Below, piece after piece: positions 36,734 to 37,991 of a stretch of 64,000 nt of DNA (its first letter is position 1; the number at the start of each line of letters is the position of its first letter). The translations under genes and the position numbers were made by a program. The notes under the pieces are model-generated. The model made no database searches, was not told the DNA's origin, and saw only the letters and a list, made by a program, of their open reading frames with translations. Source of the DNA: Anaerolineaceae bacterium (GTDB lineage Bacteria > Chloroflexota > Anaerolineae > Aggregatilineales > Phototrophicaceae); assembly GCA_002699585.1 (NCBI GenBank), contig PABP01000013.1:1-64000 (forward strand), given 5' to 3'.

Positions 36734-36762
36734 TTGACAACGTCATAACCAGAACTTACAAT
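36734..36762 (+). promoter_or_regulatory. Promoter of SufR-like regulator gene
   Basis: TTGACA (36734-36739), 17-base spacer, TACAAT (36757-36762), 44 bases upstream of the ATG. Confidence 0.75.
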
Positions 36763-36805
36763 TTTTCTGAAAACGGTCTGCTAAATTCGGTTGGGGTGAC
36801 CTCAT

Positions 36806-37450
36806 ATGCCATATGAGATGCAAGATACACGGCGCAAGATCATCGATATTTTGCGGGAAAATAACCAGGCAACAGTCGATACAATTGTCAACTACCTAGC
36901 TGATAACTACGATCAGGAGCTCACTGCAGTCACAGTTCGACATCATCTCAACATTCTACAAGAGGATAATCTGGTTCGTTCTGATACACTTAAGCACCGC
37001 ACTTCGCCAGGGCGTCCCCAGCGGCTTTACGAATTGACATCCCAGGCAGAGGAGCATTTCCCCAGTAATTACCAACATCTGGTGGCATCGTTATTGCGAG
37101 AATTGCGCGCGACGCTGCCAGAAGAGCAAAGCAATGTAATACTCGAAGGGGCTGCGCTGACGATGGCCCACGAGGCGCAGATCCCAAAACACATGGATCT
37201 CGGCGAACGCCTCACGTATGCTGTCCGGTATTTAAATGAACACGGCTATGATGCCGATTACGAACCCGTTGATGATGGCTATCTGCTTCATACACGCAAC
37301 TGCCCTTATCACTCTTTGGCAAAGGGAGAAGACGGGTTGTGCCAACTCGATATGCGCTTGATTGCTGCCATGCTGGGGGCTATTCCCAGGATGACAGCCC
37401 ATATGGCACAGGGCGATAATGCGTGTTCCTATTTGATCCCGACTGAATGA
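36806..37450 (+). CDS. SufR-like Fe-S-sensing winged-helix regulator
   Basis: A 214-residue protein. The N-terminal winged helix (about 5-75; ATVDTIVNYL, TVRHHLNILQEDNLV) resembles ArsR/DeoR-type regulators and SufR. The C-terminal domain has three Cys spaced C-x12-C-x27-C (NCPYH, GLCQLD, NACSY), which fits the cluster-binding pattern of SufR proteins, some of which use three Cys. SufR represses Fe-S assembly genes when it holds a 4Fe-4S cluster. An A-type carrier gene with an operator-like dyad lies 115 bases downstream, which supports the assignment. Cluster binding itself is inferred. Confidence 0.83.
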   Translation: MPYEMQDTRRKIIDILRENNQATVDTIVNYLADNYDQELTAVTVRHHLNILQEDNLVRSDTLKHRTSPGRPQRLYELTSQAEEHFPSNYQHLVASLLRELRATLPEEQSNVILEGAALTMAHEAQIPKHMDLGERLTYAVRYLNEHGYDADYEPVDDGYLLHTRNCPYHSLAKGEDGLCQLDMRLIAAMLGAIPRMTAHMAQGDNACSYLIPTE

Positions 37451-37496
37451 CATTGTTATAGCATTACATTGGTATTGAAGAAGAGCGTCTTTTAAA

Positions 37497-37526
37497 TTGA
37501 CGGTCGTAGCAGAACTACGATATAAT
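37497..37526 (+). promoter_or_regulatory. Promoter of A-type carrier gene with embedded operator
   Basis: TTGACG (37497-37502) and TATAAT (37521-37526) flank an 18-base spacer. From 37504 to 37520 the spacer is a perfect inverted repeat, TCGTAG-N5-CTACGA. A dimeric protein bound there would cover the promoter. The SufR-like protein encoded upstream is the obvious candidate. Confidence 0.75.
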
Positions 37527-37565
37527 CTTAATCACAAATCATAGTAAAAGCAGGAGCTGCCAGTC

Positions 37566-37991
37566 ATGGCTGTTATTGAAGAACCTCAAACAACACAAGT
37601 TGAAGAAGCTGTACTGGTGGTCACACCATCCGCAGTTGATGTTATCAAGAACTTGCTTGAACAGCGTAACATCCCAGGTTATGCCCTGCGTGTGTTTGTC
37701 ACAGGTGGCGGCTGCTCTGGTTTGCAGTACGGCATGTCCTTTGAAGAAGGCCCCCAGGATAACGATGCGGTCGTCAGCGTGGACGATGTCACCCTGCTTG
37801 TTGACCCCACCAGCCTGGTCTACCTCAAGGGCGCAACCATCGATTTCGTCGATAGCTTGATTGGTGGCGGTTTCCGTATTGATAACCCCAACGCCATTTC
37901 TCAATGTGGTTGCGGCACGTCCTTTAAGGCGGATGGCAGCCCGGAAGCGGATGCGTGCGGTTGCGGTGGTACTTGCGGCAGCAGCTACTAA
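37566..37991 (+). CDS. A-type iron-sulfur carrier (IscA/ErpA/SufA family)
   Basis: A 141-residue protein that delivers Fe-S clusters to apo-enzymes. The family Cys residues are present: GGGCSGLQYG and the C-terminal CGCGTSF. Two features stand out: an N-terminal extension of about 17 residues, and an extra C-terminal tail with three more Cys (DACGCGGTCGSSY). AGGAGCTGCC precedes the ATG. Likely controlled by the SufR-like regulator next to it. Which subfamily (IscA, ErpA or SufA) it belongs to cannot be settled here. Confidence 0.93.
   Translation: MAVIEEPQTTQVEEAVLVVTPSAVDVIKNLLEQRNIPGYALRVFVTGGGCSGLQYGMSFEEGPQDNDAVVSVDDVTLLVDPTSLVYLKGATIDFVDSLIGGGFRIDNPNAISQCGCGTSFKADGSPEADACGCGGTCGSSY

Follow-up and report, generated by a model that had tools for sequence, protein, structure and literature searches.

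A SufR paralog encoded next to hesB in the 64,000-nt stretch of DNA analysed here (hereafter the window) is likely to repress hesB, the suf operon and sufT through a candidate operator, RAY-N4-RTC, placed just upstream of the -35 box. This reading is drawn from homology of the regulator and its cysteines, a common motif at a fixed promoter position, cross-prediction between promoters, and loss of the motif together with the regulator, all of which are seen in the sequences themselves.

The regulator gene (36806-37450, forward strand) encodes a protein of 214 aa and is flanked by a divergent asd-like gene, named by eye, and by hesB/erpA. The true start may be 36818 instead of 36806, because relatives start at the residue equivalent to M5. 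The initial annotation had called the product SufR-like and pointed to a C-x12-C-x27-C pattern in it, and both statements hold. The cysteines (C166-x12-C179-x27-C207) are invariant in 30/30 aligned relatives, a few rows showing small indels in the intervals, and their spacing is that of the essential cysteines of Mycobacterium tuberculosis SufR (Rv1460), the suf operon repressor described in the accessible text of PMC6034842 as requiring C203, C216 and C244. Profile searches gave a full-length TIGR02702 match (67.8 bits over residues 7-211) and an HTH_5 match of 24.3 bits, above the cut-off of 22. The protein thus has the winged-HTH N-terminus, the C-terminal extension and the conserved cysteines with Rv1460 spacing that characterize the broad SufR family, while its score places it outside the cyanobacterial SufR equivalog TIGR02702, whose curated cut-off is 178.8 bits. 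The predicted structure is an HTH fold (mean pLDDT 82.4, pTM 0.59); HTH proteins were the sole kind of match in a structure search, and the two matches of the sequence to solved structures were at the HTH level. We consider that the protein is probably an Fe-S-binding, SufR-like repressor.

Relatives of the regulator were found in 43/61 genomes, own genome counted, the sole match in one of them (G050) being of the suf-linked type. hesB directly follows the regulator in 26/30 fetched loci. In three loci of family f7 (L020, L023 and L030), the hesB-clade regulator is followed by another ORF, by eye a glycosyltransferase, and not by hesB. SufR-like proteins occur in 155/301 Chloroflexota genomes at E up to 1e-20, the phylum being taken from named relatives, whose loci are almost all MAGs labelled Anaerolineae, Aggregatilineales or Chloroflexi (80 kept of 106 loci). 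Two close relatives come from entries titled Pleurocapsa minor (L242, JAHHHY010000001.1) and Bacteroidetes bacterium (L243, JAPUDW010000368.1), which are probably mislabelled bins.

The neighbouring gene (37566-37991, forward strand, 141 aa) had been annotated as an Fe-S carrier, and profile searches agree: it matches the ErpA model NF010147 at 120.5 bits (cut-off 117) and PF01521 at 66.6 bits (cut-off 26.3), as a HesB/ErpA-type A-type carrier. Its promoter, on the forward strand, consists of a -35 box TTGACG (37497-37502) and a -10 box TATAAT (37521-37526), both aligned across 26 relatives' promoters, own included, and separated by an 18-bp spacer (37503-37520). The dyad TCGTAG-CAGAA-CTACGA occupies 37504-37520 on the forward strand, spacer positions 2-18, exactly as annotated, and had been proposed as the operator. 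The proposal failed on comparison, and the dyad is probably a product of chance. TCGTAG-N5-CTACGA occurs once in the whole 6.7 Mb genome (the backwards-read control pattern occurs 3 times), and neither other Fe-S genes nor orthologous promoters carry it. At the same distance from the -35 box, all six pairs are found in 1/19 family hesB promoters, that of the window, and in 0/35 further ones; the other 18 family hesB promoters show 0-3/6 pairs (1/6 in the congener), 15 family suf promoters 0-3/6 and the 35 further orthologous hesB promoters 0-5/6. The comparison of the family promoters used a fixed distance and would miss dyads displaced by one or two bases where the spacer is 17 bp long. The arms of TCGTAG-N5-CTACGA are nevertheless perfect over 6 bp and lie exactly inside the hesB spacer, this species carries an imperfect copy of the upstream operator, and of the 115 promoter-like combinations of site and spacer counted over the two strands (54 + 61) no other has a 6-bp dyad in its spacer, so that one could think of a new second site peculiar to the window's species. 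We regard an operator role of either kind as very unlikely: the dyad is missing from 18/18 other family hesB promoters, congener included, from 35/35 further ones and from the rest of the genome, and its frequency is compatible with chance. An 18-bp spacer allows 28 dyad placements, hence 28 x 4^-6 = 0.007 dyads each and at most about 0.8 expected by our own arithmetic, and the window contains 23 perfect 6-N5-6 dyads. The dyad is also not repeated at the regulator's own putative promoter, TTGACA-N17-TACAAT (36734-36762, forward strand; -35 at 36734-36739, -10 at 36757-36762, read from the sequence), as had been noted.

When hesB promoters were aligned on the -35 box, a common arrangement appeared, RAY-N4-RTC followed by 7 bp and TTGAC, with its centre 12.5 bp upstream of the -35 box and about 27 bp upstream of the centre of the spacer dyad. 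In the window, ortholog comparison and the models described below place this candidate operator at 37478-37491 on the forward strand (AAGAA-GAGC-GTCTT), with the RTC half at 37487-37489; the site is imperfect, having GAA in place of RAY. A fuller dyad, TTTATGAT-N4-ATCATAAA, is found in suf promoters. The genome's own suf promoter, which has no regulator gene adjacent, reads GAT-AGGT-ATC, 7 bp, TTGACA; it precedes an operon in which sufB and sufD were identified by PF01458 and sufC, sufS, sufU and a Rieske-type gene by eye. A sufT-like gene, which we take to be of the DUF59 type, was matched in 35 loci and is divergent from sufC in all 34 where sufC was also fetched; in many of these loci the dyad faces sufT on the opposite strand. 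In G006 and G026, where a CorA-like gene (by eye) lies upstream of sufT, sufT retains its own element copy, and G026 has a second copy beyond the CorA-like gene near the contig end, which presumably belongs to sufC. At the regulator's own promoter the element has no clear counterpart, and model R1 gives no match there.

The case for this operator rests on comparison, because the pattern RAY-N4-RTCW-N6-TTGAC has 4 matches in the window for 3.9 expected, so that the window's site on its own is at chance level. Among dyad axes, the one lying 12.5 bp upstream of the -35 box came first, alone or in a tie, in three promoter sets (family hesB, n=19; family suf, n=15; order suf, n=17), while for order hesB promoters the axis at -13.5 ranked above that at -12.5. 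Shuffling of partner half-sites reached the observed pairing in 2/2000 trials for family hesB, 12/2000 for order suf and 13/2000 for order hesB (n=7); the values for family suf (162/2000) and for the pooled 34 rows (152/2000) are not clear on their own, and the suf group without regulator (7 rows, G007 among them) gave 1006/2000. Both half-sites were found in 15/35 further hesB promoters outside the training set, some of them from genomes already in the analysis, and in only 5/18 of the more distant ones; this set was obtained from 80 loci, of which 27 had no usable adjacent hesB, and from the resulting 53 promoters, of which 18 repeated known ones. With a position matrix built on suf promoters, the hesB promoters of the family scored higher than a background of 169 promoter-like sites (Mann-Whitney 2e-10, a value that ignores relatedness, with other true element copies among the top background sites). 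Promoter rows are related throughout, hence these counts are not independent events.

Two other patterns were rejected as operators. A genome scan located GTC-N9-GAC, which overlaps the -35 box, 6 times and its backwards control 14 times; of the five places other than hesB, two were read (L034 and L037), and neither is beside a recognised Fe-S gene. CAAC-N6-GTTG, the cyanobacterial SufR site as given in the accessible parts of PMC13421787 and PMC8593673, had 39 matches with at most one mismatch for 28.7 expected. None lies at these promoters, whether in 37451-37565 or in the region upstream of the regulator, in keeping with the earlier suggestion of a specificity different from that of Cyanobacteria.

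Cross-prediction connects the hesB and suf promoters. Model R1 was trained on 30 hesB and suf promoters, both own sites included, with L018 and three shifted suf promoters excluded. Across the own genome it recovered suf (E 3.4e-7), hesB (2.7e-5) and the sufT strand (0.055), followed by noise at 6.2. Model R2, trained on 16 hesB promoters from other genera, ranked the suf/sufT region first in the own genome (E 0.0039) and the window's hesB second (0.0062). Model R3, trained on 21 suf promoters from other genera, found suf in the own genome (E 3.5e-8) and recovered hesB in 8/10 regulator-bearing genomes, missing the own hesB promoter at E up to 1 and also that of G003. In 18 regulator-bearing genomes the best R1 match had an E value of 0.0021 or lower, including the only two that contributed no training row, G002 (2.3e-6) and G016 (0.0021); in six regulator-less hesB genomes the best was 0.28, and three had no match at all. 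As candidates for additional regulon members, five weak matches (G001, G004, two in G009, G022) were rejected, no Fe-S assembly gene being linkable to them.

These six family genomes have kept hesB and lack the regulator; profile searches gave no match in them, apart from two short HTH-level ones in G013. In the regulator group, the RTC half-site stands at its fixed place in 18/19 promoters of hesB and 11/15 of suf, against 0/6 and 0/6 in the regulator-less genomes. Of the four suf promoters without it in the former, three look shifted. Of the 21 family genomes in which the regulator was matched, 19 form the hesB set (G002 and G014 excluded), and the suf group of 15 takes in G036, a genome that yielded neither hesB nor the regulator. 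Sixteen family genomes have no regulator match; 10 of these also have no hesB match, were taken as likely assembly gaps and were excluded, and one of them, G007, has a suf promoter with RAY but TTC for RTC. In a SufB tree the six regulator-less genomes amount to four separate changes, each of them required by starred branches: G013; G011 (beside G029); G017 with G033; and G019 with G035 (beside G009). The regulator is gone from the G011 and G013 loci, where hesB still has the asd-like/pheA-like gene as its neighbour. The G+C content of regulator-less loci is 0.56-0.62, against 0.44-0.59 in ten others, but G029 (0.57) and G016 (0.59) retain the element despite high G+C. The hesB and suf promoters of the regulator-less genomes have lost the dyad but retain strong -35 and -10 hexamers, which is what the loss of a repressor would predict.

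From these observations we infer DNA binding, dimerization, cluster loading and repression by the regulator. In Fe-S sufficient cells, the cluster-loaded protein would bind as a dimer to the A/T-flanked RAY-N4-RTC, about 12.5 bp upstream of the -35 box and centred at about -47 relative to the assumed start site. Bound there, it would keep RNA polymerase off a near-consensus promoter, because the operator flanks reach the -35 box. The predicted targets are the adjacent hesB/erpA, the distant sufCBDSU operon and the divergent sufT-like gene, which loss of the cluster would release together. The available text on characterised SufR proteins likewise assigns repression to the cluster-loaded form (PMC6034842, PMC8593673, PMC13421787). 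Control of the adjacent carrier gene by the regulator, as initially annotated, is supported as probable.

Judging from the co-loss pattern and a survey of Rrf2 proteins, it is improbable that the common element is bound by another iron or Fe-S regulator (Fur, DtxR or Rrf2) and that the SufR-like protein has a different role. In favour of such a regulator, the A/T-rich element bears a loose resemblance to Fur sites, a weak R1 match (L189, G001:C1:4967420-4967445, TGATGAT-CATT-ATCATCA, E 0.073) precedes a gene resembling a DtxR-type metal regulator, and sub-cut-off Rrf2 matches, short HTH stretches, occur in 6/10 regulator-bearing and 0/6 regulator-less genomes. However, Rrf2 scored above cut-off in 0/16 genomes against 12/14 controls (the best Rrf2/IscR match, PF02082, in the own genome has 29.5 bits, under the cut-off of 30), four regulator-bearing genomes in which the element is present show no Rrf2 match, however weak, and the element vanishes at both promoters along with the SufR-like gene in four lineages. 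Its place just upstream of the -35 box, at about -47 from an assumed start, would also suit an activator or the polymerase alpha subunit, and its flanks are as A/T-rich as those of an UP element would be. We nonetheless doubt that the protein is an activator or the element a mere A/T-rich UP element strengthening the promoter: the RTC and RAY half-sites with partner covariation in hesB promoters are more than A/T richness, the regulator-less promoters kept strong hexamers after losing the element, and SufR proteins characterised so far act as repressors in the accessible accounts (PMC6034842, PMC8593673).

Within Anaerolineae, two SufR paralogs can be distinguished. In a tree of 49 regulators, 21 hesB-linked proteins are separate from 15 suf-linked ones with a split of 99/95, 13 unlinked rows being uncounted. 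The hesB-linked regulator shares the broad family and the operator class with the suf-linked SufR of families f2, f4, f9, f12 and f15, but belongs to the other clade. The suf-linked gene is divergent from sufC wherever both were fetched, and the region between the two was compared in 8 loci outside the order: 5 of them have ATCATAAATATTGAC, and 7 have GTCAATAT on the far side. No second, suf-linked SufR copy was found in 37 family genomes, several of them incomplete assemblies, except for a long-branch 49-bit match in G024. Most simply, the suf operator would either have been taken over by the hesB-linked paralog or have been shared by it all along. We lean slightly towards a replacement, in which the hesB-linked paralog of the window's family took the place of a lost suf-linked SufR and retained the class of operator ancestral for suf, a RAY-N4-RTC that extends to the -35 box, uniting hesB, sufCBDSU and sufT in one tiny regulon with its own specificity that was dismantled, operators included, four times. 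This would represent a network under an Fe-S repressor that lies outside Cyanobacteria and Actinobacteria and has a DNA specificity of its own.

Unlike Rv1460, whose gene lies in the suf operon, the window's regulator is linked to hesB and the suf operon lies elsewhere in the genome. Cyanobacterial SufR (Synechocystis sll0088) resembles it in its HTH domain, C-terminal cysteines, full-length TIGR02702 match and control of Fe-S biogenesis, but differs in profile score and operator and in being encoded beside sufBCDS; its ligands are given differently in two reviews (PMC8593673, PMC13421787), as C164/C171/C206 and as C-X12-C-X13-C-X14-C. In Myxococcus xanthus, RisR is described as an Fe-S regulator of two Fe-S operons acting through GAC-N7-GTC near the promoter (PMC9973013, accessible part). 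The likeness lies in one regulator, two Fe-S operons and a dyad near the promoter, whereas RisR belongs to the Rrf2 family and its dyad has another spacing. A listing-level literature search, largely confined to open-access papers, recognised no published SufR regulon for Chloroflexota. For one Chloroflexota family we can propose a minimal regulon and a concrete new operator, with a DNA specificity that is directly testable, and the regulator losses offer a natural series for the fate of promoters once a repressor disappears.

Two further observations concern the suf loci. The sufB loci of G003, G006, G012, G028, G029, G042, G048 and G050 contain SufB ORFs of 853-1250 aa in which the core is split by insertions, presumably inteins. 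In genus g16 the dyad of the suf promoters (L078 and L084) is shifted, and that of L084, TTTTATCAT-CGGC-ATGATAAAA, is a 9-bp perfect inverted repeat.
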